A stretch of 23,597 nt of DNA from a virus. The notes under the pieces were generated by a model, which saw only the letters and a list, made by a program, of their open reading frames with translations, did not search any database and was not told the DNA's origin. Position 1 is the first letter of the stretch; every line of letters starts with the position of its first letter. The translations under genes and the position numbers were made by a program. The stretch spans positions 1-23,597 of IMG/VR virus record IMGVR_UViG_3300032782_000028; one strand, written 5' to 3'. Positions 4,899 to 17,739 of the stretch are shown here, piece by piece.

Positions 4899-6872
4899 AT
4901 GGCTGCTGACGGTTTCGTACAAGTCCCGCCCAATTCCACGGGCGGCAAAGTCGATTGTTCTAGCCTTTCGGTTGCCGGTGCGACCGTTGTCCGGCAACGT
5001 GTCGTTATCGGGGATAACGCGCATTCCGCGAACTTTGCGAATGTGACGAATGGCGCGTTGCAAGTCGGCGGCACTCTTGACAACATCAGCGCTACGGTAA
5101 CGGTTGCTGGCACCGTCACGCTAGGCGCTGGCTCCAACAACATCGGAACCGTTCAAGCGATTTCTGCCCCAGTGGTACTTGCTGCCGGTGCTAACAACAT
5201 CGGGAAAATTAACAACATCTCGGCCACGGTGGTTGTGTCCGGGACGGTTTCCCTTGGCGCAAGTACCGCCAATATCGGCGTACTCAACAATATCTCTGCC
5301 ACGGTGACGGTAGCCGGTACGGTGTCGCTTGGCGCAGGCACGGCGAACATTGGTTCCATCAACAATATCTCCGCTCCCGTGGTGTTGGCGGCGGGAACCA
5401 ACAACATCGGGACCATCAACAACATCTCCGCAAGCGTGACCGTCCAAGGTCATGTGACGGTAGATGCGATTTCCGCGACGGCGACATGCGTCATCGGCGG
5501 TTTTCTTGATCCCAGCGGTAACCAGAGGAATTTGGTAGATAGCGCCAATCTGGCCCTAAAAGTCAACGTTGTGGCTGGTGGTGCTGGCGGTGGGATCGTC
5601 ACGGGTCCGCACAACCAAGGCGTCTCTGTCACGGCTGGCGATAGCCCGGTACTCGTTGGGGGTACTGACGGCACGAATGCCCGGATGGTCAAGGTTGATT
5701 CGAACGGCAACCTGTACATCAACAACATCTCCGCGACGGTCACGGTAGCGGGGAATCTGAGCATTGGCGGGACAGTCGGCGGAACGTCCGCGACGGCTGG
5801 CAGTAGCTTTACGCTCATCGGCGGAACCGATGGTTCGCTTGCTCGCGCCATCAAGACCGATGCCAATGGAAACCTCGTCATCAACAACATTTCGGCGACC
5901 GTAACGGTCGCCGGAAATCTGACGGTCGGCGGCACGACCGGCGCGACCTCCTATACGGCGGGTAGCAGCTTTACCATGATCGGCGGGATGGACGGCTCTC
6001 TGGCCCGTGGGCTTCTCATGGACTCGTCGGGCCATGCCATCATTTCCGGTACGGTCGCCCTTGCTGGCGGTTCCAACAACATCGGGACCATCAACAATAT
6101 TTCGGCTGGTGTCGTGCTGGCTGCTGGCTCTGCGAATATCGGCACGATCAATAACATCAGCGCAAACGTCACGGTTCAAGGCACTGTTTCGCTGGGTGCT
6201 GGCACGGCCAACATCGGAACGATCAACAACATCTCTGCTGCCGTTTCTCTTGCCGCTGGTTCCAATAACATTGGCTCCATCAACAACATTTCGGCAAACG
6301 TCAACGTGGTATTGCAGGCTGGAACCGCGAATATCGGCTCCATCAACAATATCAGCGCGGCTGTCGTTGTTGCAGGTCAAGTTGCGGCGGGCGCATCCAT
6401 TACGGCTGGTAATAGTCCGGTATTGATGGGGGGTCGTGTAAAGCTGTCGGCTTCTACGACTGCCGCTGCTAAGGATTGCCAGTGGACATGGATGGATAAA
6501 GCCGGGCGCATGATTGTCCAGCTTAACCATCCGAGTTTGGCCCCTTCTGCATCGCACGGTCCTAAGACCGTGACGATTTCCACGTCGGCATCCGTGGCGC
6601 TGATTGCCGCGCCGGGTTCTGGTTTGGTAGCGTATGTAGATTCCATCATGGTAACGAATGGAAGTGCTACACTTACGCGAGCGGATATCTACGAGGCTTC
6701 CGGGACTGCTACGCCCGTAGTAGCTGGTTATCTCGCAGCAAGTGGCGGCGGTTTTGTGAATAAGTTTGATCCGCCGTGGCGCGTTTCTGCGAATACCGCG
6801 CTTAACGCCCGTGTGAAACCAAACGTCTCAAAGTGTCTTTTTGTGATTCATTTCCACGTCGGCGTGGATTAA
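4899..6872 (+). CDS. Large NNISA-repeat beta-rich virion protein
   Basis: Predicted 657-aa protein, most likely a head fibre, decoration or tail-associated fibre. An N-terminal segment (about 1-58) is followed by tandem units built on NNISA + TVTVAGTVSLGAGTANIG or the shorter NNISA + PVVLAAGTNNIG. These give periods of about 25 and 19 residues. The middle (about 240-385) has three longer repeats containing GGTDGSLAR and DANGNL. More short repeats run to about residue 490, and a distinct C-terminal domain (about 510-657) ends in CLFVIHFHVGVD. The hydrophobic/glycine periodicity fits a beta-solenoid or trimeric beta-fibre. Twelve copies of N-I-S occur at regular spacing, matching the N-x-S/T glycosylation sequon. 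It lies just after the scaffold-like gene. The exact function is unknown and no enzymatic motif is seen. Confidence 0.7.
   Translation: MAADGFVQVPPNSTGGKVDCSSLSVAGATVVRQRVVIGDNAHSANFANVTNGALQVGGTLDNISATVTVAGTVTLGAGSNNIGTVQAISAPVVLAAGANNIGKINNISATVVVSGTVSLGASTANIGVLNNISATVTVAGTVSLGAGTANIGSINNISAPVVLAAGTNNIGTINNISASVTVQGHVTVDAISATATCVIGGFLDPSGNQRNLVDSANLALKVNVVAGGAGGGIVTGPHNQGVSVTAGDSPVLVGGTDGTNARMVKVDSNGNLYINNISATVTVAGNLSIGGTVGGTSATAGSSFTLIGGTDGSLARAIKTDANGNLVINNISATVTVAGNLTVGGTTGATSYTAGSSFTMIGGMDGSLARGLLMDSSGHAIISGTVALAGGSNNIGTINNISAGVVLAAGSANIGTINNISANVTVQGTVSLGAGTANIGTINNISAAVSLAAGSNNIGSINNISANVNVVLQAGTANIGSINNISAAVVVAGQVAAGASITAGNSPVLMGGRVKLSASTTAAAKDCQWTWMDKAGRMIVQLNHPSLAPSASHGPKTVTISTSASVALIAAPGSGLVAYVDSIMVTNGSATLTRADIYEASGTATPVVAGYLAASGGGFVNKFDPPWRVSANTALNARVKPNVSKCLFVIHFHVGVD
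6853..6868 (+). promoter_or_regulatory. Hairpin at the end of the repeat-protein gene
   Basis: A 6-bp inverted repeat (TCCACG / CGTGGA) closes on a TCGG loop just before the stop codon of the repeat gene and the GGAGG site of the next. There is no U-tract, so it is not a convincing terminator. It could protect the transcript end or modulate translation of the small genes downstream. It may also be chance within coding sequence. Confidence 0.25.
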
Positions 6873-6883
6873 TGGAGGCTGAA

Positions 6884-7138
6884 ATGGCTGCGAAGATCAA
6901 CAAGACCGTCAAGATTTCGTTGCGTGACGGTTCGAACGTCAAGAATCAAATGTCCCCCGATAACCCGTGGCATGGCGGCGCAAGCGCCAAGGGCATGGGT
7001 GAAGTGGACGGCGTGAAGCGTCGCGGTGGTCCGTCGCCGGATACCGGCAAGGGCTACGGCACGGCTCGCGGTATTGGCGGCGGCACAAAGGCGACTGACG
7101 GTCGCAAGTCGGGCCAAGATTCTGACGATGGTGAATAA
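6884..7138 (+). CDS. Small Gly/Lys-rich hypothetical protein
   Basis: Unrecognised 84-aa protein beginning MAAKINKTVKISLRDG. The first 25 residues are basic and could form beta strands. The rest is low-complexity, rich in Gly, Lys and Asp (GKGYGTARGIGGGTKATDGR) and probably disordered. ATG at 6884 is chosen because GGAGG at 6874-6878 lies 5 bases before it; an ATG at 6872 overlaps the preceding stop but lies on top of that ribosome site. It opens a run of small genes between the repeat fibre and the capsid genes. Likely a minor virion or DNA-associated protein, but this is inference from position and charge. Confidence 0.65.
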   Translation: MAAKINKTVKISLRDGSNVKNQMSPDNPWHGGASAKGMGEVDGVKRRGGPSPDTGKGYGTARGIGGGTKATDGRKSGQDSDDGE

Positions 7139-7140
7139 TC

Positions 7141-7386
7141 ATGGCCGAAACCAAGAATGGGGGAGGCGGTGACGGCAAGGTGACAAACCGTGCCGGTAAC
7201 GTCTTCTCTTTCCAAGCTAATACCGGGAAAGTGCTAAAGGATGGCTCCGATTCGAGTCTTCCGATTACGCCAGCGACGGAATTGCGATACAAGGATGCCG
7301 TGGTATATGCCAAAGCCCATTCCGGCGCTTGGTATTCCTATACGGGGTCGGCTTGGGTTTCTAGCAAAAACCCGATGGGGATGTGA
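7141..7386 (+). CDS. Small hypothetical protein
   Basis: Unrecognised 81-aa protein. A Gly-rich N-terminus (TKNGGGGDGKVTNRAG) is followed by a compact segment with aromatic residues (GAWYSYTGSAWVSSK) that may form a beta-hairpin, a pattern seen in small adhesive or capsid-bound virion proteins. The start follows the previous stop by 2 bases, and the stop lies just before the next gene, so it belongs to the same transcript. No catalytic motif is visible. Confidence 0.65.
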   Translation: MAETKNGGGGDGKVTNRAGNVFSFQANTGKVLKDGSDSSLPITPATELRYKDAVVYAKAHSGAWYSYTGSAWVSSKNPMGM

Positions 7387-7387
7387 A

Positions 7388-7564
7388 ATGGCTTACGGTA
7401 GCGGAAATCGCCCGAAGGGAAGTCCTGAGCCAAAGGGCAAGAAAACGCCCAATGCTCCAGTCCGGGCAAAGAAACAGGCCAAGGTAGGCAATCCGGGCAA
7501 GGATAACGACGGCTCGCGTAACCGTTATGCGAAAGGTCTGCTGTCGGGGAAAAGCCGTGGCTAA
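7388..7564 (+). CDS. Tiny basic protein (58 aa)
   Basis: Predicted 58-aa, strongly basic, low-complexity protein: MAYGSGNRPKGSPEPKGKKT at the N-terminus and a GLLSGKSRG tail. It starts 1 base after the preceding stop and overlaps the following gene by 8 bases. Lysine, arginine, proline and glycine dominate, so it is probably disordered and may bind nucleic acid. An in-frame extension exists back to 7241 but would lie within the previous gene, so ATG at 7388 is preferred. Confidence 0.6.
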   Translation: MAYGSGNRPKGSPEPKGKKTPNAPVRAKKQAKVGNPGKDNDGSRNRYAKGLLSGKSRG

Positions 7565-7751
7565 ACTTACGAGCAAGACTCGGGCAAAGATTCCCGCCAA
7601 AAAGTTTGCTAACCCGAAAGAGCGCCGCTTCCCTCTGGAAGACAAGGCGCATATTCGCGCGGCTGAATCCTACAAGCGTTTTGCTTCTCCTGCTGAGAAG
7701 CAAAAGATCGATGCCGCTGCCAACAAGGCATTCGGCAAGAAGGGCAAATGA
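7557..7751 (+). CDS. Small basic phage protein (64 aa)
   Basis: Predicted 64-aa basic helical protein starting at GTG: residues read MAKLTSKTRAKIPAKKFANP, then PLEDKAHIRAAESYKRF and a lysine-rich end. I recognise the pattern (Lys-rich start, IPAKKFANP-type segment, DKAHIRAA helix) as a small protein recurrent in phage and prophage genomes, without a proven role. The GTG start is chosen because it keeps the conserved-looking N-terminus and follows GGGGAAAA, overlapping the previous gene by 8 bases. An in-frame ATG at 7527 would add ten residues without that support. Confidence 0.65.
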   Translation: MAKLTSKTRAKIPAKKFANPKERRFPLEDKAHIRAAESYKRFASPAEKQKIDAAANKAFGKKGK

Positions 7752-7894
7752 TGGCGAAGAAAATGACACTTCCGCAAGCGGAACGGAAGTATGAGAAGTC
7801 GGCGGCTGACCGCAAAGCCGATATTGCTGGCGCTAAAAAGCTCATGCGCCAAACCAACAAGCCCATGAGAAAGACCGCTGGCCGGGGGCGATAA
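7748..7894 (+). CDS. Tiny basic protein (48 aa)
   Basis: Predicted 48-aa helical basic protein ([20 protein letters not shown] start, then [20 protein letters not shown]). ATG overlaps the previous stop as ATGA, and its own stop TAA overlaps the next start by 1 base. Two adjacent ATGs (7748 and 7751) are possible starts. No family is recognised. The tight overlaps and the neighbours of the same kind make it credible despite its size. Confidence 0.55.
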
Positions 7895-8046
7895 TGCCAC
7901 TCGAAAAAGGAAAGTCGCGTAAAGCCTTTAGCGACAACGTGAAGACCGAAATCGCGGCTGGCAAGCCCCAGAAACAGGCGGTTGCCATTGCCTATTCGGA
8001 AGCTGGCGAGAAGAAGCGCAAACCTGCAAAGAGGAAAACAAAATGA
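7894..8046 (+). CDS. Tiny basic protein (50 aa), [10 protein letters not shown] family
   Basis: Predicted 50-aa basic protein. The core [20 protein letters not shown] followed by [14 protein letters not shown] is a recurring small-protein pattern in phages (basic start, short helix, [11 protein letters not shown] segment). Its function is unknown. It starts on the A of the preceding TAA and ends overlapping the next ATG by 4 bases. The C-terminus is a lysine/arginine tail, consistent with nucleic-acid contact, but this is inference. Confidence 0.65.
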
Positions 8047-8372
8047 TTCTCTTCCCCGAAGCCGATTTCGCTCCGGGTGATTACGAGAGTCAGATTGTAG
8101 ATATCCCGAACGATGTAACCCGACTGACCGCGTATGCGACGCGGGTCGGCTGGTCGGGGGATGACAATTGCCTAGAATTGGACCTGTACGCGAATCACCA
8201 CATTCGCGGGAAATGGTATTTGCTCGTCGGATTCAAGGCTGACGGCTCCATAGATGCTCCCGTTTCTTCCGTGGGCCGTAAAATCAAGATGTATGGGCCA
8301 CGGCAATTTCAGGTGAAATTCCGTGTCTTGCGCCCTATTAGGATGGAAATCGGCGTGGAGATGGAGACATGA
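8043..8372 (+). CDS. Hypothetical beta-rich virion protein (109 aa)
   Basis: Unrecognised 109-aa protein with alternating beta-strand-like segments ([51 protein letters not shown]). The pattern suggests a small beta-sandwich. It begins with 4-base overlap with the tiny basic gene before it and ends overlapping the following gene by 4 bases. The strand pattern and position before the capsid gene suggest a minor head or decoration protein. No signal peptide or catalytic motif is visible. Confidence 0.6.
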
Positions 8373-9034
8373 GCATCGCATTCGACAATGCTTCCTCTGC
8401 CAAGGGCGCTGCTGTAGCTACGATCAAATGGATTCATACCGCGCAGGCTAACGTCGTCGCGGTTATGGCGCTCTACAGTCCGGGCGCGAACAGCGCATCC
8501 TCTGCCGGGCTAAATAACGTCGCCATGACCAAGATGGGGATCGTAAAGCGGACAAGTGGCGCGCAGTGGATGACGATTTATACCGGTAGCGCCACATCTG
8601 CCGGGAACCTTAGCTGTAGTGCCACGCTTGGGGGTTCCGACACATGGCCGGTCGGGATGGTGACATATACCGGCGCAGCGGATAACGCATTCGGAACCGG
8701 ACTCAGCACGCAAACGGCATCCGGGGCGACAAACGTCAACCTGTCTGTTTCTACTCAGGCTGGACAGACTGTCGTAACATTTATGGCGATGAGTGTGGCG
8801 GCTTCTGCCGTGGCATCCAATGGAACGCAACGGCTGAATGTCAGTTCTGGATCGTCTTATACCCTCTTCGGATGGGATTTGCCGTCAGGCGGTAATACCA
8901 CGTCATTCTCTGTTTCTCTGGCGGCGGCGTCGGTGGTATTGGCCGGTCTGGGTATTTCCGCGAGTGCTGTATCAGTAAGCTCGCCTCCTGCAATCGTTCC
9001 TTATTCTCTGCGTCTTCTGGGTGTGGGGCTGTAA
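8369..9034 (+). CDS. Beta-sandwich virion protein (221 aa)
   Basis: Predicted 221-aa Ser/Thr/Ala/Gly-rich beta protein. Motifs such as NVAMTKMGIVKRTSGAQW, LGGSDTWPVGMVTYTGA and a long run of strands ending LAGLGISASAV resemble the beta-sandwich proteins of phages and bacterial surface layers in which a TYGGxxMTKxG-type segment recurs. Low charge suggests a capsid- or tail-exposed adhesive or decoration role. It overlaps the previous gene by 4 bases and is directly abutted by the next. The family match is from memory of the pattern, so function stays tentative. Confidence 0.55.
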   Translation: MSIAFDNASSAKGAAVATIKWIHTAQANVVAVMALYSPGANSASSAGLNNVAMTKMGIVKRTSGAQWMTIYTGSATSAGNLSCSATLGGSDTWPVGMVTYTGAADNAFGTGLSTQTASGATNVNLSVSTQAGQTVVTFMAMSVAASAVASNGTQRLNVSSGSSYTLFGWDLPSGGNTTSFSVSLAAASVVLAGLGISASAVSVSSPPAIVPYSLRLLGVGL

Positions 9035-9433
9035 ATGCTGCTCGCTCTCTGGTCAGACTTCTGGAATCCGGCTGATTGGGTACAGGGTGTTACTCCGCCG
9101 CCCGTTACCGCTCCGCAATCTCCTACAAATGCCGGTCACGGGCCGATGTGGAAGGAGAAAGAGTATCGGCGCGCGGATGAAGAATATTGGGAAGCCAGAG
9201 AACAATCCCTGAAAGCGCATATCCCGATCACGGTTTCCGAAGTGGTCGAAAAGCAATATCCGGAGATTGTTCCGATGGTTGCCGCGCACAATGAAATGGT
9301 TGCGCGTCTTCCGAAGCTGCCGGATATCGAGTCTCTGAACCGGGTTTCCACGGAAATTACCAAGCTGTCATTGCAAATTTCCAGATTACGTGTAAAATCC
9401 GACGAAGATGCGCTTTTGGCGCTTCTTCTCTAG
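9035..9433 (+). CDS. Hypothetical coiled-coil protein (132 aa)
   Basis: Unrecognised 132-aa protein. The N-terminus (LLALWSDFWNPADWVQ) is hydrophobic and aromatic, followed by a Pro-rich linker. A charged helix (EKEYRRADEEYWEAREQSL) comes next, then a longer helix near the C-terminus (NRVSTEITKLSLQISRLRVK) that could be coiled coil. It ends in DALLALLL. It starts immediately after the previous stop. The hydrophobic N-terminus is not a clear signal peptide because there is no basic n-region. It could be a capsid-associated protein. Confidence 0.55.
   Translation: MLLALWSDFWNPADWVQGVTPPPVTAPQSPTNAGHGPMWKEKEYRRADEEYWEAREQSLKAHIPITVSEVVEKQYPEIVPMVAAHNEMVARLPKLPDIESLNRVSTEITKLSLQISRLRVKSDEDALLALLL
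9371..9398 (+). promoter_or_regulatory. Candidate sigma70-type promoter before the capsid gene
   Basis: TTGCAA at 9371-9376 and TAAAAT at 9393-9398 are separated by 16 bases, giving 4/6 and 5/6 agreement with the -35 and -10 consensus. Both lie inside the end of the preceding gene, so the transcript would start near 9405 and carry about 120 bases of leader into the major capsid gene. This would fit the high expression a capsid protein needs. It is a pattern match only. Confidence 0.35.
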
Positions 9434-9437
9434 CGTT

Positions 9438-9504
9438 CATCCCGTGATGGGGTGAATAGCACCTTAGCCGTGATGGCCGATGATTTCCCCGCGTGAGGGG
9501 GAGA
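9438..9504 (+). promoter_or_regulatory. Structured leader upstream of the major capsid gene
   Basis: The only sizeable gap in this half of the window (9434-9524) holds three possible hairpins. The first pairs CATCCC with GGGGTG around a GTGAT loop (9438-9454). The second has GCC/GGC arms around the same GTGAT loop (9467-9477). The third pairs TTTCCCC with GGGGAGA (9484-9504) and is followed by TTTT, resembling a weak terminator. CCGTGATGG is repeated exactly at 9442-9450 and 9468-9476. Possible roles are RNA stabilisation, attenuation or a protein-binding operator for capsid expression. Confidence 0.4.
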
Positions 9505-9524
9505 TTTTCTATCGGAGTTTCATC

Positions 9525-10598
9525 ATGGCAACAACCTCGTTTGCGACCGGGGACAACCTAGCCGTCAAACTGTGGTCGAAAAAGATTGCTGTCGAGGCCC
9601 TTAAACAAACTTGGTGTTACAAGTTTATGGGGTCGGATGACAACAGTGTCATCCAAATCTTTGACGACACGCAGAAATCGGCTGGCGACCGGATTCGTAT
9701 TCCTCTCCGCCGCCTGTTGGCAGGTAACGGTGTTCTCGGCGATCAAACGCTGGAAGGCAACGAAGAACGCATCAACTACTACTCGGATGATGTGTACATC
9801 AACCAACTTCGTTGGGCTGTCCGCGAAGGTGGTAAGTTCACTCGCCAATTGGTCCCGTTCGATATCCGCGAACATGCTCGCGCCAGTCTGCAAGATTGGT
9901 GGGCTGACCGGATTGATTACTGGTTCATGAACCAGATCGCCGGTAACACGGTTCAAACGGACGTGCGTTTCACTGGCCTGCAATCTGCGATTGCTCCGGA
10001 TACGGACCATATCGTCTATGCTGGCGGCGCGACGACCGACCAATCGCTTTCGGCATCGGCGACTTATCGCTTTACCCTGACGCTCATTGACGTGTGCGTG
10101 GAAAAGGCGAAGTCCCTGCAAGTGCCGATCCGCCCGATCATGATTAACGGCGAAGAAAAGTATGTGATGTTCCTGCACCACTATCAGGTGACGGACTTGC
10201 GTACCAACACCAACACGGGCCAATGGTTCGATATCCAGAAAGCGGCTATGCAGGGCGGTAACGTCACGCAGAACCCGATCTATACGGGTGCCATCGGCGA
10301 GTACAACGGCGTGATTATGCACGCTTCCAACCGTCTCCCGGCTTTCTCGGCGGGTAACGCACTGTCGGCTGACGGCGGTCGCATCGCGGCATTCTGCGGC
10401 GCGCAAGCGGTCGGCATGGCATTTGGACGCGACAACGGGCCAGAGCGGTTCAATTGGGTCGAAGACTACTTCGATTATGAAAACCAGTTCGGTGTGGCTG
10501 CGGGCTGTATCGCAGGCATGAAGAAGCTGGTCTTCAACGGATCGGACTTCGCTACGATCAACGTGCGTACTTGGGCGCAAGCTCATACGACCAGCTAA
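9525..10598 (+). CDS. Major capsid protein (N4 gp56 family)
   Basis: Predicted 357-aa coat protein that forms the icosahedral shell. The sequence reads as an N4 gp56-type capsid protein: an N-terminal segment NLAVKLWSKKIAVEALKQ, then GDRIRIPLRRLLAGNG and the aromatic region DYWFMNQIAGNT. Further on come MFLHHYQVTDLRTNT and, near the end, QFGVAAGCIAGMKKLVFNG. The length fits that family, and there is no N-terminal HK97-type delta domain or protease site. ATG at 9525 is chosen because GGAG (9514-9517) lies 7 bases upstream; the longer frame from 9480 includes leader sequence. A structured leader and candidate promoter precede it. The 146-aa protein follows after 12 bases. Confidence 0.88.
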   Translation: MATTSFATGDNLAVKLWSKKIAVEALKQTWCYKFMGSDDNSVIQIFDDTQKSAGDRIRIPLRRLLAGNGVLGDQTLEGNEERINYYSDDVYINQLRWAVREGGKFTRQLVPFDIREHARASLQDWWADRIDYWFMNQIAGNTVQTDVRFTGLQSAIAPDTDHIVYAGGATTDQSLSASATYRFTLTLIDVCVEKAKSLQVPIRPIMINGEEKYVMFLHHYQVTDLRTNTNTGQWFDIQKAAMQGGNVTQNPIYTGAIGEYNGVIMHASNRLPAFSAGNALSADGGRIAAFCGAQAVGMAFGRDNGPERFNWVEDYFDYENQFGVAAGCIAGMKKLVFNGSDFATINVRTWAQAHTTS

Positions 10599-10610
10599 TA
10601 GGAGGCTGAC

Positions 10611-11051
10611 ATGGCTACTTATACGGCTACGGCGGCGCAAACGAACGCATCGGGGTTCTTCCTCCACCCGCCGAAGTACAACGAGAAAGGTGTGCAAGCG
10701 ATGAGCGTGCAATTCACCTTTACCACTTCACAATCGGCTGGCGACGTTATCCAGATGATTCCTGTCATGAAGGGGACTCAGGTCCACGACGTGATGGTTT
10801 CCACGTCCGGCTTTACTGGCGGGCTGGCTACCCTTGGGATCGGGGATGGCAATTCCACCAAACGATTCGGTTCTGCAAGCGTTTCCGCAGCGAATAGCAT
10901 TCGTCCTACGCAATTCACAATCGGTTATAGCTATTCGGCGGATGACACGATTGATATCCTGTTCGATGCGGTTTCTACCGCAACGGCCACGGGTACGGTG
11001 CGGCTGACGGTGTTTTTCTCGTTCGATCAGGCGCAAGACGGCAACTCGTAA
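10611..11051 (+). CDS. Structural protein downstream of the capsid gene (146 aa)
   Basis: Predicted 146-aa, beta-rich protein of low charge (VQFTFTTSQSAGDVIQMIPV, GTVRLTVFFSFDQ). It starts after a good AGGAGG site (GGAGGCTGAC before ATG), so it should be well expressed, as expected of a decoration or cement protein. In phages with an N4 gp56-type coat, a small protein of this sort commonly follows the coat gene. It is the last gene before a strong intrinsic terminator, so coat and this protein probably form one transcript. No enzymatic motif is seen. Confidence 0.6.
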   Translation: MATYTATAAQTNASGFFLHPPKYNEKGVQAMSVQFTFTTSQSAGDVIQMIPVMKGTQVHDVMVSTSGFTGGLATLGIGDGNSTKRFGSASVSAANSIRPTQFTIGYSYSADDTIDILFDAVSTATATGTVRLTVFFSFDQAQDGNS

Positions 11052-11072
11052 GATTCCCTCTGCAAGTGCTTG

Positions 11073-11096
11073 GCCCCGCTTCGGCGGGGCTTTTTT
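11073..11096 (+). terminator. Strong intrinsic terminator
   Basis: GCCCCGC and GCGGGGC form a perfect 7-bp GC-rich stem closed by a TTCG loop (a very stable tetraloop), followed directly by six T. It lies 21 bases after the stop of the 146-aa structural gene and ends the capsid transcript. It also insulates the accessory cassette that follows. Confidence 0.92.
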
Positions 11097-11103
11097 ATGT
11101 CAG

Positions 11104-11112
11104 TGATATACT
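11104..11112 (+). promoter_or_regulatory. Candidate extended -10 promoter for the accessory cassette
   Basis: TGATATACT fits the extended -10 pattern TGnTATAnT and lies 8 bases after the T-tract of the terminator. No good -35 is seen, because that position falls in the terminator stem, but an extended -10 can work without one. Transcription would start near 11120. A GGGAG ribosome site (11136-11140) precedes the ATG at 11146. This supports independent expression of the glycosyltransferase cassette. Confidence 0.45.
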
Positions 11113-11145
11113 GAAACCTGCAAAATCTGCACATCGGGAGAAAAC

Positions 11146-12708
11146 ATGCAGGTCGAAATGCACTTGCGGGATGCAGGCAACAACAAGCTACTTGGCATTG
11201 AAACCAAGGCGGCAAAACCGGCCAACCGTTTCTACGAAGCCGTGAATCTGGATCAGGCCGGGAAACTGAAAGAGGCGGAAGCCATCTACTTGGAAGTCCT
11301 AAGCTCCCATTTTGGGAATACAGCAGCAATCGCCGCGCTGGGGATGAATTACGCCGTACAGGAAAAACATGGCATTGCTAATGCCCTTCTCTCCCATGCC
11401 TTCAACAACGTGGACAATCTCGAAAAGGATTTGAGGGAATTGGGGATCGGCCTTGAAGAAACCGGCAAGGGCGGTCGGGAGCGTTTCCTGAAAATGAAGC
11501 GATCCGAACTCATGAATGCCATCGGTACGACATGGAAGCATGAGAACAAGATCGACAAGGCGCGCTATTGGTTTGAGCGAGCCAAGACTACCTTTGGCGA
11601 GCCGTCTGCTGACATTGAAAACAATCTGGCGACCCTGTACATCAACGAGGGTAAGCCTAGTCAGGCGATGACGCACCTGACGGAAGCCATCCGGATCGAC
11701 CCCACGCACGCACAAGCGCGATGGAACCGCTCGCTGGCGAACCTAGAGCTAGGGAACTACGCGGAAGGGTTCGATGAATACGGCTGGGGCAAGCGCGCGA
11801 AAGTCCGCTTGGACCGGGAATATGCCCTTCACCAAATCCCGGAATGGGATGGCTCTCCGGGAAAGACGATCATCGTTTATGGTGAGCAAGGCATCGGTGA
11901 TGAAATCATGTTCGCGTCCTGCCTGCCGGACCTGATTGCGATCAGCAAGCAGGTCGTGTTTGATTGCCACAAGAAACTGCATCGTCTGTTCTGCCATTCG
12001 TTCCCGTCCATCGATATCTACGGCACGCGCGAAGACGAAAACCTCATGTGGCCGATCAAACCGGATCGGACGAATCGTTATCCGTTTGATGCCAAGGTCG
12101 CCATCGGTGATTTGCCGAAATACTTTCGCCGTCACTTGGATTCGTTTCCCGGCAAGCCTTACATTACCCCGTCAACGGAAGCGCAATTGCGCTGGGCGCA
12201 ACGGCTGGATGAGATGTTCGGACGCGGTGACAAGAAACCGGTGATTGGCATTAACTGGATCGGGGGCCACAAGAAAACCCGCGTGGAAGTAAGAAGCCTG
12301 CAATTGGAACAATTGCTTCCCATCTTGAAACAGGATGCTCATTTCGTCTCCCTGCAATACACCCCTTGCGAAGACGAGATTTTCCAATTCGAGCAAAAGC
12401 ATGGTATCCAAATTCACCATTGGCCCGAAGCTGCTTATAACGAGCACTATGACGAAACCGCAGGACTTGTCGCTAACCTTGACCTCATTATCACTTGCTG
12501 TTCCTCCGTGGTGCATCTCGCAGGCTCAATGGGTGTTCCGTGCTGGGTTGCCACTCCGAGTCGCCCGGCGTGGCGATACCGTCTTGATCTTGATTACATG
12601 CCGTGGTACGGAAAAACCGTAACCCTGTTCCGGCAAGCGCCTGACACCGTGGAATGGGCCCCAGTAGTCAACGAAATCGCCGCATCCTTTGCGGAAATGT
12701 TGGAGTAG
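11146..12708 (+). CDS. TPR-repeat glycosyltransferase (GT-B, GT9-like)
   Basis: Predicted 520-aa protein. The first half contains tetratricopeptide repeats, clearest around residues 20-65 (EAVNLDQAGKLKEAEAIYLE) and 160-215 (NLATLYINEGKPSQAMTHL). The second half is a GT-B glycosyltransferase domain: IIVYGEQGIGDEIMFASCLP near 242-262 and PVIGINWIGG near 365. The nucleotide-sugar site DLIITCCSSVVHLAGSMG lies near 446-463. The fold resembles ADP-heptosyltransferase (GT9) and bacterial TPR-GT proteins related in layout to O-GlcNAc transferase. TPR domains in such enzymes usually hold a protein acceptor, so protein glycosylation is plausible. It starts the cassette after a terminator and a promoter candidate. 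The donor sugar is unknown; lipid or surface glycan modification is the alternative. Confidence 0.8.
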   Translation: MQVEMHLRDAGNNKLLGIETKAAKPANRFYEAVNLDQAGKLKEAEAIYLEVLSSHFGNTAAIAALGMNYAVQEKHGIANALLSHAFNNVDNLEKDLRELGIGLEETGKGGRERFLKMKRSELMNAIGTTWKHENKIDKARYWFERAKTTFGEPSADIENNLATLYINEGKPSQAMTHLTEAIRIDPTHAQARWNRSLANLELGNYAEGFDEYGWGKRAKVRLDREYALHQIPEWDGSPGKTIIVYGEQGIGDEIMFASCLPDLIAISKQVVFDCHKKLHRLFCHSFPSIDIYGTREDENLMWPIKPDRTNRYPFDAKVAIGDLPKYFRRHLDSFPGKPYITPSTEAQLRWAQRLDEMFGRGDKKPVIGINWIGGHKKTRVEVRSLQLEQLLPILKQDAHFVSLQYTPCEDEIFQFEQKHGIQIHHWPEAAYNEHYDETAGLVANLDLIITCCSSVVHLAGSMGVPCWVATPSRPAWRYRLDLDYMPWYGKTVTLFRQAPDTVEWAPVVNEIAASFAEMLE

Positions 12709-12711
12709 ATC

Positions 12712-13305
12712 ATGAAATGGCTGCTGTCTCTTCTCTTGCTCGCCGCGTGCGCTTCTGTACCGCCCCAACAGACGGCACGCAATTCGGTTGTTTATGTGGC
12801 GACGGATACGGGACACGGCTCTGGTGTCGTCATTAATGAGAAGTGCGCGCTAACTGCGGCGCACGTCTTGGACGGTGCCAAGGAATTTATCTTGATGGGG
12901 GAGGATGATGCGCCGCATATCGCAGCAATTGCGGCGGTAGATACCGACAAGGATATCGGAGTAGTGTGTGCTGCCAAATCCCTTAACGCGCCGCCCGTGC
13001 AAATGGTTGACAAGATGCCGCCAGATTGGACGCCTGTCTTTACCATCGGATTCCCGATCGATAAGAAGTGGATTCTGACGGAAGGGCGATATCAGGGCGA
13101 TTCCACCACGACGACGCCGGTCGCACCGGGCAGTAGCGGCGGCGGCGTGTTCACGGAAGACGGCAAATATGTGGGGTTCATCGATGCCTTGGCTCTCTAT
13201 TCATCTCCTGTTGGCGTCTTGGACTTTCCTCATCTGGCGACAATCATTCCCGTTACTGACATTCGGACCTTTCTGGATGCCAACCACATCACCTACAGAG
13301 GATAA
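12712..13305 (+). CDS. Lipoprotein trypsin-like serine protease
   Basis: Predicted 197-aa chymotrypsin-fold protease with a lipoprotein signal: MKWLLSLLLLAAC, where LAAC is a lipobox and Cys13 would be lipidated after export. The triad is visible as His51 (LTAAHVL), Asp81 (DTDKDIGVV) and Ser142 (PGSSGGGVF). HGSGVVI near residue 40 is the usual strand before the His loop. The mature domain is short for the family but complete. There is no PDZ domain, unlike DegP. It would sit in the periplasm or on a membrane leaflet. The start overlaps nothing and is preceded by GGAG within the end of the glycosyltransferase gene. A membrane-tethered protease within a phage structural block is unusual and suggests exclusion or envelope alteration, or a lysogenic-conversion trait; this is inference. 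Confidence 0.78.
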   Translation: MKWLLSLLLLAACASVPPQQTARNSVVYVATDTGHGSGVVINEKCALTAAHVLDGAKEFILMGEDDAPHIAAIAAVDTDKDIGVVCAAKSLNAPPVQMVDKMPPDWTPVFTIGFPIDKKWILTEGRYQGDSTTTTPVAPGSSGGGVFTEDGKYVGFIDALALYSSPVGVLDFPHLATIIPVTDIRTFLDANHITYRG

Positions 13306-13307
13306 CG

Positions 13308-13817
13308 ATGCTTTTCACGCCCCAATACGCAGCATTGCAACAAGAACTTCATAGCCGTGGCAATTACGGTGTGAGCGGCCATAAGCACGCCGATCACATT
13401 ATCCAGCTTACCCAGAATCTCGGAACGCGGGACGTGCTGGATTACGGCGCAGGACAATGCACGCTTTCCAAGGCGCTCCCTTTTGCGATCACGAATTACG
13501 ATCCGTTTATCATGGGCTTGGAGAAAGAACCGGAACCGCATGATATCGTCGTGTGTTCGGATATGTTTGAACATATCGAACCGGAATGTCTGGGTGCCGT
13601 GCTAATCCATATTCGCAGCAAGACCATGAAAGCCTTGTTTGTGGACGTGGCAACGCGCCCGGCAAACAAGGTATTGGCCGATGGCCGGAACGCTCATTTG
13701 ATTCAGGAGTCGCCAGAATGGTGGCTTTCACGCACAAGCAGCTTGTTCGACGTGCAATCCTTGCAAACCTATCAAGGGGGCTTTATCGCAATCTTTTCGC
13801 CGAAGGAAGTAAAATGA
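13308..13817 (+). CDS. SAM-dependent methyltransferase (class I)
   Basis: Predicted 169-aa methyltransferase. Motif I is DVLDYGAGQCTLSKAL near residues 42-57 and the motif IV-like segment DIVVCSDMFEHIEPE near 78-92. The short length fits a minimal Rossmann-type methyltransferase. EHIEP is common in methyltransferases acting on small or sugar substrates. The stop overlaps the next start as ATGA, so it is coupled to the glycosyltransferase that follows. Acting on a sugar added by one of the two transferases would be consistent, but no substrate can be read from the sequence. Confidence 0.72.
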   Translation: MLFTPQYAALQQELHSRGNYGVSGHKHADHIIQLTQNLGTRDVLDYGAGQCTLSKALPFAITNYDPFIMGLEKEPEPHDIVVCSDMFEHIEPECLGAVLIHIRSKTMKALFVDVATRPANKVLADGRNAHLIQESPEWWLSRTSSLFDVQSLQTYQGGFIAIFSPKEVK

Positions 13818-14542
13818 CTCCGCTGAAAATCGCCATCGGCTACGATCCGCGAGAAGCGGTCGCCTATCACGTCCTATGCCATTCAATTATGTCGCGGGCC
13901 TCCGGTCCGGTCCAATTCATCCCCATCAGCCTATCGACATTGAAAGGGATTTACGCTCGCCCGCGAGATACCCGGCAATCGACGGACTTTACCTACGCCC
14001 GATTCCTTACTCCATATCTTGCTGGGCCGGGGACTTCAATATTCCTAGACTCGGACATGCTGTGTTTATGCGACATTTACGAATTAGTCGAGAAAGCGTC
14101 CGAAGATCGTTTCTCCGATGTTTTGGTGGTAAAGCACGATTACACACCGAAATCCGGAAACAAGTTTCTGAATCAGGTGCAAACCACGTACCCGATGAAA
14201 AACTGGTCAAGCCTCATGGTCTTCAACGGGCATCGGATGGCCGTAAAGAACCTGACGCCGGAATACGTCAACAAGGCAAGCCCGATGGACCTGCATCAGT
14301 TCAAATGGGCGGGGGCCGTAGGCGCAATCCCGCCTGAATACAACCATCTCGTCGGCGAGTACGAACCGCGTAAGGATGCTAAAATCGTGCACTATACGCT
14401 AGGGTCGCCCTGTTTCCGTTCCTATCAAGAATGCGAATACGCTCAGGAGTGGTTTGAGGAATTAGGAAGGATGACGCATTGCGATGACCCGATTTTGGAG
14501 CTAATCCAATGCCAACCTACCTCAGCATCCAGCAAAACGTAG
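13814..14542 (+). CDS. Glycosyltransferase, GT8-like
   Basis: Predicted 242-aa GT-A type glycosyltransferase. The N-terminus reads KIAIGYDPREAVAYHVLCHS, then FTYARFLTPYLAG and the metal-binding DxD as LDSDMLCL (Asp79, Asp81). A late His motif (IVHYTLGSPCF) follows near residue 190. This layout fits the glycogenin/GT8 type, which transfers sugars with retention of configuration. I chose ATG at 13814, coupled to the previous gene by ATGA and preceded by GAAGGAAG; an upstream extension to 13586 would lie inside the methyltransferase gene. Its last 34 bases overlap the adaptor gene, marking where cassette and structural genes join. Acceptor unknown: protein or surface glycan. Confidence 0.75.
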   Translation: MTPLKIAIGYDPREAVAYHVLCHSIMSRASGPVQFIPISLSTLKGIYARPRDTRQSTDFTYARFLTPYLAGPGTSIFLDSDMLCLCDIYELVEKASEDRFSDVLVVKHDYTPKSGNKFLNQVQTTYPMKNWSSLMVFNGHRMAVKNLTPEYVNKASPMDLHQFKWAGAVGAIPPEYNHLVGEYEPRKDAKIVHYTLGSPCFRSYQECEYAQEWFEELGRMTHCDDPILELIQCQPTSASSKT

Positions 14543-15117
14543 CGGACATTCTGAACCGCTCGGATTACACTTCCCAGATTAAATTGGGGATCATTGCCAC
14601 AATCCGGGCCTACGAGAAGCAACGGTTCTGGTTCAACGAAACGGTAACGGCTCTGACATGCACGCCTAATAGCGAGCTACTGGCCGTTCCCGCCGACCAT
14701 CTCGAAACCGACCGGATGGAAATCGTCATCCAGTCGGCGGACGTGCCGATGATTAACGTCCCATTTTCGGAAGTCCGCTACATCAACATCAACGAATCTC
14801 TGGGCCTGCCGATGCGCTGGTGCCAGTACGGCGTCAACTTCCACTTGGCGAACGTGCCGGATTCGGCCTATACGATCCTCTGCTACTACATGCAGAAACT
14901 TCCGGAACTTTCCGCCGATGCCGATACCAACGATTGGCTGTCGTGCGCGGAAGACGTGGTGATGTACGGCGCAGCCAAGTTTGTGGCAAAGACTTACATG
15001 CGGGATTTGCAGGCCGGGGCGATTTTCTCGGCCATGCAGAAGTCCTATGCAGACGAACAGTTGTTCAAACTGCGCGACCAGAAATTCCAAGTGCGCCTCC
15101 GTCAGACGAGATTCTAA
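14509..15117 (+). CDS. Head-tail adaptor protein (gp4/SU10-type)
   Basis: Predicted 202-aa protein, likely the adaptor that docks below the portal ring. It is helical at both ends (LSIQQNVADILNRSDYTSQI and LFKLRDQKFQVRLRQTRF) with a beta-rich middle (DRMEIVIQSADVPMINVPFS). This resembles P22 gp4/SU10-type podovirus adaptors, whose usual length is about 160-250 aa. Its start at 14509 lies within the end of the glycosyltransferase gene, with GGAG 8 bases before. The tail stabilisation gene follows with no gap, the order expected for portal-tail components. Confidence 0.65.
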   Translation: MPTYLSIQQNVADILNRSDYTSQIKLGIIATIRAYEKQRFWFNETVTALTCTPNSELLAVPADHLETDRMEIVIQSADVPMINVPFSEVRYININESLGLPMRWCQYGVNFHLANVPDSAYTILCYYMQKLPELSADADTNDWLSCAEDVVMYGAAKFVAKTYMRDLQAGAIFSAMQKSYADEQLFKLRDQKFQVRLRQTRF

Positions 15118-16659: not shown

Positions 16660-17739
16660 ATGGCACTGCGCGATTGGTCCACCACTCCCGGTAGCAACGC
16701 AAACGTCGGCTCTATCAATTGGGCGGAAGGGCAAGCCCCTTCCACCGTCAACGATAGCGCCCGGCAAATGATGGCAGACGTGGCGGATTGGACGACAAAC
16801 GGTCCTGAGTGGTATCCGCGCGATTCCGCGACCTACGCGAGCGGAACTACCTTTACCGTGCCGGGCAACCAGACGGCGGCCTATACGGCAGGCCGCCGCG
16901 TATGGGCGGCGGTGACTGCCGGGAACGTCTATGGTTCCGTGGTGTCCGCAACCTACGGCACGAATACGACCGTCACTGTTGTCTGCGATTCAGGTTCTCT
17001 GGATTCGGGCCTGTCGTCTCTGCGCATCGGGCCGCAAGCCACGAATACCTCTTTCCCGACCAACACCAACCAAGGGTTTAACGTCCTGACGTGCGGCTCT
17101 CTATCCGTCAGCGCGGGTGCTACTGTAGCAACTCTGGCGGCGACGACTGCCGCCATCGGCGTGGCAAACGTGGGTTCCATGTCTATCAGCGCGGCTCTGG
17201 TGGTCACGGGGCTGGGTACGCTGGCCGGTGGTCTGCACGTAGACGGCGCGCTCTCTCTGAGTGCTGGCGTGGCAACACCTCTCATCATCAACAGTAACCA
17301 AGCTGCTGCCGGGATCAAATTCAGTTCCAGCACCGGAACCAAACTTGCCCGCGTGAATGGCGCGAACTTCGAATTCGTAGCGAGTGCTGGCTCTACCGTT
17401 CTTCTATCTCTGGATGATTCCGGGAACCTAACGGCGACTGCCAACATCACGGCTTACTCGGATGAGAATCTGAAAGAGGATTGGAGAAGCCTGCCGGATG
17501 ACTTCGTGGAGCAACTTGCCGCGATCCGGCGCAGCGGTACGTACTCCCGCATCGATACCGGTGCGCGAGCGGTAGGCGTCGGCGCGCAATCGCTTATGAA
17601 TATCCTTCCGGAAGCTGTCCTGAATGGCGGCGCGCACCTGTCGGTTGCCTACGGACAAGCCGCCCTTGTGGCATGCGTGGCGCTCTGCCGCCGCGTGCTG
17701 GCACTGGAAGCCAGAATTGCTGAATTGGAGAATAAATAA
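16660..17739 (+). CDS. Tail fibre with C-terminal S74 chaperone domain
   Basis: Predicted 359-aa receptor-binding or tail-associated fibre. The N-terminus (MALRDWSTTPGSNANVGSIN) is of the kind that docks to the tail. Residues about 55-260 are Ser/Thr/Ala/Gly-rich beta repeats. The C-terminal ~95 residues match the peptidase S74 intramolecular chaperone: YSDENLKEDW with Ser267 and Lys272 forming the expected Ser-Lys dyad, then VGVGAQSLMNILPEAV, VAYGQAALVACVALCRRVLA and a closing coiled coil. By family knowledge this part trimerises the fibre, folds it and cuts itself off before the Ser. Cleavage would leave about 266 residues. It follows the tail hub by 9 bases. Confidence 0.85.
   Translation: MALRDWSTTPGSNANVGSINWAEGQAPSTVNDSARQMMADVADWTTNGPEWYPRDSATYASGTTFTVPGNQTAAYTAGRRVWAAVTAGNVYGSVVSATYGTNTTVTVVCDSGSLDSGLSSLRIGPQATNTSFPTNTNQGFNVLTCGSLSVSAGATVATLAATTAAIGVANVGSMSISAALVVTGLGTLAGGLHVDGALSLSAGVATPLIINSNQAAAGIKFSSSTGTKLARVNGANFEFVASAGSTVLLSLDDSGNLTATANITAYSDENLKEDWRSLPDDFVEQLAAIRRSGTYSRIDTGARAVGVGAQSLMNILPEAVLNGGAHLSVAYGQAALVACVALCRRVLALEARIAELENK

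Follow-up and report, generated by a model that had tools for sequence, protein, structure and literature searches.

The locus

The window analysed in this study is a 23,597-nucleotide stretch of an IMG/VR virus record (IMGVR_UViG_3300032782_000028), in which the genes of interest lie in a podovirus head/tail block. Its gene of main interest (11146-12708) encodes a 520-residue protein that combines tetratricopeptide repeats (TPR, approximately residues 28-217) with a glycosyltransferase (GT) domain of the GT-B type (approximately residues 234-520). As a preliminary description of this DNA correctly noted, this TPR-GT gene lies about 4.3 kb downstream of the gene of a 657-residue repeat protein (4899-6872) in which the tripeptide N-I-S recurs. 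Around the two genes are those of a P22-like portal, the major capsid protein (MCP), a small head protein, a tail adaptor and the tail; all features given here are on the forward (+) strand. The MCP open reading frame (ORF; 9480-10598, phrog_334) probably has its true start at the ATG at 9525; among solved structures, the protein is related to the MCP of Ralstonia phage GP4 (8h89). The small head protein gene (10611-11051, phrog_486) adjoins it, where a cement or decoration protein would sit. The TPR-GT is part of a three-gene cassette beside the capsid gene and therefore probably serves to place sugars on the virus shell.

A three-gene cassette co-inherited with the capsid gene

The TPR-GT, a class I methyltransferase (13308-13817, phrog_24759) and a GT8-like (GT-A) glycosyltransferase with a DSD motif (13814-14542, phrog_28018) form a three-gene cassette, with the head genes on one side and the gene of the tail adaptor (14509-15117, phrog_2941) on the other. 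The stop codon of the methyltransferase gene and the start codon of the GT8-like gene overlap as ATGA (13814-13817), which suggests coupled translation; the ORF list puts the start of the GT8-like gene too early, at 13586. A trypsin-like protease gene (12712-13305) follows the TPR-GT gene, its product beginning with MKWLLSLLLLAACASVPPQQ, a lipoprotein-like signal with LAAC. Only certain close relatives (L011, L013, L017 and L018) have the protease beside the GT, and it is therefore not a core gene of the cassette.

Relatives of the GT were gathered from viral contigs, and relatives of the MCP were gathered independently. Among 142 distinct MCP loci, the GT lies just downstream in 76 and is absent from that place in 66, a split that does not measure prevalence, as some loci entered through the GT search. 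Fifty-nine GT-positive loci could be read through to the adaptor: 47 carry both the methyltransferase and the GT8-like gene, six the GT8-like gene only, two the methyltransferase only and four neither. Neither gene occurs in any of the 66 GT-negative loci, where the head genes run directly into the adjoining adaptor, and sister phages whose MCP is of the same family have none of the three cassette genes. In most loci, 2.3-5.6 kb separate the MCP from the adaptor where the cassette is present, versus 0.04-2.7 kb where it is absent. The arrangement of head genes followed by adaptor, without cassette, is also that of the cultured Rhizobium phage RHph_Y1_10 and Paracoccus phage KLEP18-1. On the MCP tree, presence of the GT requires eight changes, and at least three of these changes are forced by well-supported (starred) branches; the TPR-GT tracks the MCP rather than the N-I-S repeat. 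The presence of the cassette, its synteny and its co-inheritance are shown by these data, and the fold class of the enzyme by the comparison given below.

Another podovirus from the same spring (L192, MW202713.1) carries, near the terminase gene, a transferase that lacks TPR and is annotated as TibC, together with a methyltransferase; this layout is possibly a second arrangement.

Fold and family of the TPR glycosyltransferase

The TPR were identified by Pfam, and the AlphaFold2 model of the protein has a mean predicted local distance difference test score (pLDDT) of 95. Searched as a whole with Foldseek, this model ranks SPINDLY (SPY) and OGT at the top because the TPR plus GT-B plan is common to all of them; whole-chain superposition is poor, with root mean square deviations of 12-24 A. 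When the GT domain is compared on its own, it is nearest to GT9: among the 50 matches listed, 3tov has a Z score of 19.1 over 264 residues, followed by values of 17.1 for WaaF, 16.0 for WaaC and 15.8 for TibC. The earlier assignment of the domain as GT9-like and not clearly HMW1C is borne out for GT9 by this fold comparison and for HMW1C by the profile searches, in which neither Glyco_transf_41 (PF13844) nor HMw1_D2 (PF18254) matched the window at E values up to 10; in the control genomes, the PF13844 search gave results above the cut-off in two and the PF18254 search in none. Judged by profile, the phage GT is not a member of GT41/HMW1C. HMW1C is also not among the 50 structural neighbours listed for the GT domain, which alone proves nothing. 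The concern that the closest solved relatives might all be lipid-A-core transferases did not materialise, since TibC, which transfers heptose to Ser of proteins, reaches a score similar to that of WaaC. At the sequence level, the protein has no match to the Glyco_transf_9 profile (PF01075) at E values up to 10, and the GT domain finds nothing better than E 0.3 among solved structures.

A GxGD motif (Gly249, Gly251 and Asp252) is invariant across 72 sequences. Asp252 (11899-11901) is the proposed catalytic base; we take it to be the counterpart of the catalytic Asp13 of WaaC because both stand at an equal distance after the first strand of the GT domain, a correspondence drawn from position in the WaaC sequence and not from a residue-level alignment. 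None of the cassette proteins shows a clear membrane segment. With its N-terminal TPR, C-terminal GT-B domain and soluble character, the TPR-GT matches the FlmG-type layout.

A genome scan for relatives of the TPR-GT yielded 79 loci, at 25-40% identity. Pfam searches of 80 proteins flanking the bacterial relatives identified three flagellins and three type IV pilins. Flagellin genes lie 288 bp (L145), 453 bp (L105), 947 bp (L162) and 3.5 kb (L112) from the bacterial TPR-GT gene, and type IV pilin genes lie 11 bp (L100) and 91 bp (L104) from it. The enzymes of L100, L104, L105, L145 and L162 are possibly uncharacterised pilin and flagellin glycosyltransferases.

A proposed role in virion glycosylation

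We propose, with a rough probability of 55%, that the co-inherited cassette glycosylates a structural protein of the virion, most likely the MCP, by TPR-guided, O-linked transfer similar to that of FlmG. During assembly, the TPR superhelix would bind the acceptor in the host cytoplasm, and the GT9-like domain would use a nucleotide sugar of the host to attach the first sugar to Ser or Thr; the GT8-like enzyme would then extend the glycan and the methyltransferase would cap or tailor it. In this sequence of steps we infer the order, the O-linkage, the protein nature of the acceptor and its identity. That the TPR domain holds a protein acceptor, as suggested previously, has a close precedent in FlmG (PMC7591256).

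The MCP is the most likely acceptor, its gene adjoining the cassette, and a loop in the A-domain of the capsid is a candidate site. The MCP is the partner kept in all GT-positive loci used, although these loci were picked as MCP loci. The 13-residue loop in question (TTDQSLSASATYR, ORF residues 185-197, 10032-10070) is rich in Ser and Thr and aligns to the A-domain of the GP4 protein at about residues 176-188. It holds 5.7 Ser/Thr in GT-positive versus 3.4 in GT-negative MCPs, the biggest difference along the MCP. Ser or Thr stands at ORF residue 191 in 97% of GT-positive versus 42% of GT-negative MCPs, and at residue 193 in 94% versus 41%. We also looked for a conserved sequon in the MCP, and no column exceeded 30% of the GT-positive MCPs.

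Several points weigh against glycosylation of a virion protein, and of the MCP in particular. For this uncultured phage, read as sequence, any glycan is a prediction, and lipid-core transferases share the GT9 fold. The assignment of the GT8-like protein is weak (E 0.005 for the window protein, below the Pfam cut-off, which one relative reaches). The position shared with the MCP may reflect no more than a site that tolerates insertions. As for the bacterial relatives, flagellin or pilin genes directly adjoin the enzyme in five of 74 loci, a count that has no matched random control, and most of the 74 have other neighbours; the count exceeds what random neighbours should give on the premise that a genome holds only a handful of such genes. 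For the MCP loop, correction for the tree gives t 2.29 and P 0.014 for that window of the protein but P 0.44 over all windows, independent pairs divide 5.5 to 1.5 of 8, and the signal depends on few lineage changes. Since the loop is not significant after correction for tree and scan, it is kept as a candidate only. Finally, the sugar could go to a different virion protein, such as the head protein encoded at 10611-11051.

Possible alternative targets of the cassette

Among the alternatives, that the cassette modifies a virion protein other than the MCP (this head protein, a fibre or an ejection protein) survives best, though we consider it somewhat unlikely. The MCP and TPR-GT genes directly flank that of the head protein, which has a mean Ser/Thr content of 23% in GT-positive versus 20% in GT-negative phages; however, we found no site pattern in this protein, and it is poorly conserved across the GT-positive phages.

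The cassette might instead alter the host surface, namely the lipopolysaccharide (LPS) core or the O-antigen, for example against superinfection. Modification of the surface by phage-encoded enzymes is well known, and the GT9 fold includes WaaC and WaaF. However, the genes stand within the head/tail block, the enzyme has a TPR acceptor domain, the cassette includes neither a flippase nor a multi-span membrane enzyme, and the bacterial relatives adjoin flagellin and pilin genes. We thus find a role at the host surface unlikely.

The N-I-S repeat protein

The remaining alternatives place the sugar on the repeat protein, which matches no known family and is probably a beta-rich appendage of the virion. 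The twelve N-I-S tripeptides of the preliminary description are exactly twelve, eleven in NNISA and one in DNISA, and all lie within residues 62-486 (5082-6356). Inside each of the two repeat blocks they follow one another at 19, 21 or 25 residues, whereas 44-101 residues separate them from block to block, so that they are regular within blocks only. The same units carry ten N-I-G corners. In 5000 composition shuffles of the protein, N-I-S occurs 0.5 times on average and at most four times, hence its count is far above chance. However, all N-x-S/T sequons together amount to 19 versus 12.5 expected (shuffle maximum 25); as this total is inside the shuffle range, sequons as a whole show no strong enrichment, and the one tripeptide recurs because the repeat unit recurs.

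About a dozen contigs contain relatives of the repeat protein, as does one annotated phage (MW202512). A search with a DNA pattern for NIGxxNNISA returned true repeats in the same phage group only; the other four contigs, L181, L184, L187 and L189, are without such a protein. The AlphaFold model (pLDDT 41.5) was uninterpretable and was not used. We sorted the repeat corners of twelve repeat proteins by the pattern [hydrophobic][D/N/Q]x[I/V]x: 68 have Asn with Ser/Thr, 33 have Ser without Asn and four lack both, whereas Asn never occurs there without Ser. Ser is thus present in 33 of the 37 units that lack Asn (for example IDKISA, LNDISR, IDGISA and VQAISA). Moreover, Asn is retained in 69 of 76 partner turns (AGxxNIG), which are not sequons, versus 68 of 105 sequon corners. 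Because Asn is better retained where no sequon is possible and Ser is retained without Asn, the repeat itself explains the motif, in line with an earlier caution that the sequon match might reflect repeat structure alone. From this sorting, N-I-S looks like a structural corner that comes with the repeat rather than a signal for glycosylation.

Among loci with 4.5 kb available upstream of the MCP, an N-I-S repeat protein occurs in 6/33 GT-positive and 0/30 GT-negative phages. This co-occurrence arises because the repeat is restricted to one clade of the GT-positive group; the other 27 of the 33 GT-positive relatives have no N-I-S repeat at all, and for this reason it cannot be a general target of the GT.

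O-glycosylation of the conserved Ser of the ISA corner, as TibC modifies the repetitive autotransporter TibA, is doubtful. The GT domain has a TibC-like fold, TibC acts on Ser and not Thr of TibA, no residue of the corner is kept better than this Ser and the repeats are 19-25 residues long; however, the cassette is kept in phages without the repeat and the Ser may be structural, in a repeat fold that could not be modelled. N-glycosylation of the Asn of N-I-S in the manner of HMW1C, which would give a sugar-coated fibre, has the dozen motifs in one protein and their confinement to GT-positive phages in its favour, but it is highly improbable, and we reject it on the unit-by-unit conservation and on the distribution of the repeat, the GT moreover matching no GT41/HMW1C profile. 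Of the idea that the phage glycosylates its own fibre, modification of one of its own virion proteins thus stands as probable, whereas the N-I-S Asn and the repeat protein as main target do not.

In three relatives (L013:10001-10969, L014:2-985 and L015:2688-4190), the repeat region is kept and the C-terminal domains are very unlike those of the window protein, which suggests domain swapping at the C-termini of the repeat proteins.

Other genes in the window

The window opens with an FkbM-family methyltransferase gene whose 5' end is open (1-900), followed by a gene for a 2-oxoglutarate (2OG)-Fe(II) oxygenase-like protein (938-1588; weak, Pfam E 0.02, below the cut-off), conserved with the portal. 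Both encode possible partner enzymes. The pair (1-1588) is kept together upstream of the portal in L009, L010, L013 and L021, and possibly acts in the same modification pathway as the cassette. The end (ENLKEDW...) of the product of a tail fibre gene (16660-17739, phrog_25788) resembles an S74 chaperone domain.

Implications

All together, we tentatively suggest, as a possibility short of even odds, that many uncultured podoviruses, forming a widespread group, share a mobile cassette of three genes for capsid O-glycosylation. Its enzymes would be related to those that glycosylate flagellin and pilin in bacteria, with TPR-guided sugar transfer redirected to a Ser/Thr loop of the HK97-fold MCP, and repeated gains or losses would have taken place at a single fixed position that separates the head from the tail genes. 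Virion glycosylation as such and the plan of the enzyme are already known; new are the cassette beside the MCP and the tie to the flagellin and pilin relatives, and in the open-licence literature we found no paper that connects a phage capsid gene with a TPR glycosyltransferase. Few cultured tailed phages are known to have sugar-coated capsids. The many environmental phages in which the cassette is conserved beside the capsid gene, set against their cassette-less sisters, provide a natural comparison with and without it and a short list of acceptors. If capsid glycosylation is true, TPR-guided GT9-like transferases would be tied to three self-assembling shells or filaments: flagella, pili and capsids.

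Comparison with known systems

HMW1C has an all-alpha domain in place of TPR. It resembles the phage enzyme in its GT-B fold and has a protein acceptor, but differs in that the phage protein matches no HMW1C profile and an Asn acceptor pattern is not conserved in the phage repeats. OGT and SPINDLY (GT41) share the TPR plus GT-B plan, act on proteins and are the top Foldseek matches; however, they superpose poorly over the whole chain, and the phage protein lacks a Glyco_transf_41 match. The GT9 LPS heptosyltransferases WaaC and WaaF are among the closest GT-domain folds listed (Z 16-17), but they lack TPR and have a lipid acceptor, and the phage protein has no Pfam Glyco_transf_9 match.

In mycobacteriophages, phage-encoded glycosyltransferases modify capsid and tail-tube subunits (Freeman 2023, as cited in PMC12619734 and PMC11256854). 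The likeness is that the phage itself encodes the glycosyltransferases; the hosts differ. TibC adds heptose to Ser of autotransporters, in TibA to Ser and not Thr (PMC4358343). TibC/AAH heptosyltransferases are similar to the phage enzyme in GT-domain fold (Z 15.8 for TibC), and TibC acts on protein, through a Ser-linked sugar; however, TibC has no TPR and assembles as a dodecamer, with an iron finger and a beta-hairpin thumb (PMC4358343).

FlmG of Caulobacter crescentus is a cytoplasmic flagellin O-glycosyltransferase with TPR and GT-B domains, of which the TPR domain alone binds flagellins (PMC7591256). Likened by description, both proteins are soluble, with N-terminal TPR and a C-terminal GT-B domain (596 residues versus 520 in the phage), and some bacterial relatives of the phage enzyme adjoin flagellin genes. 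The phage gene differs in its place, beside a capsid gene, and in its methyltransferase and GT8-like partners.

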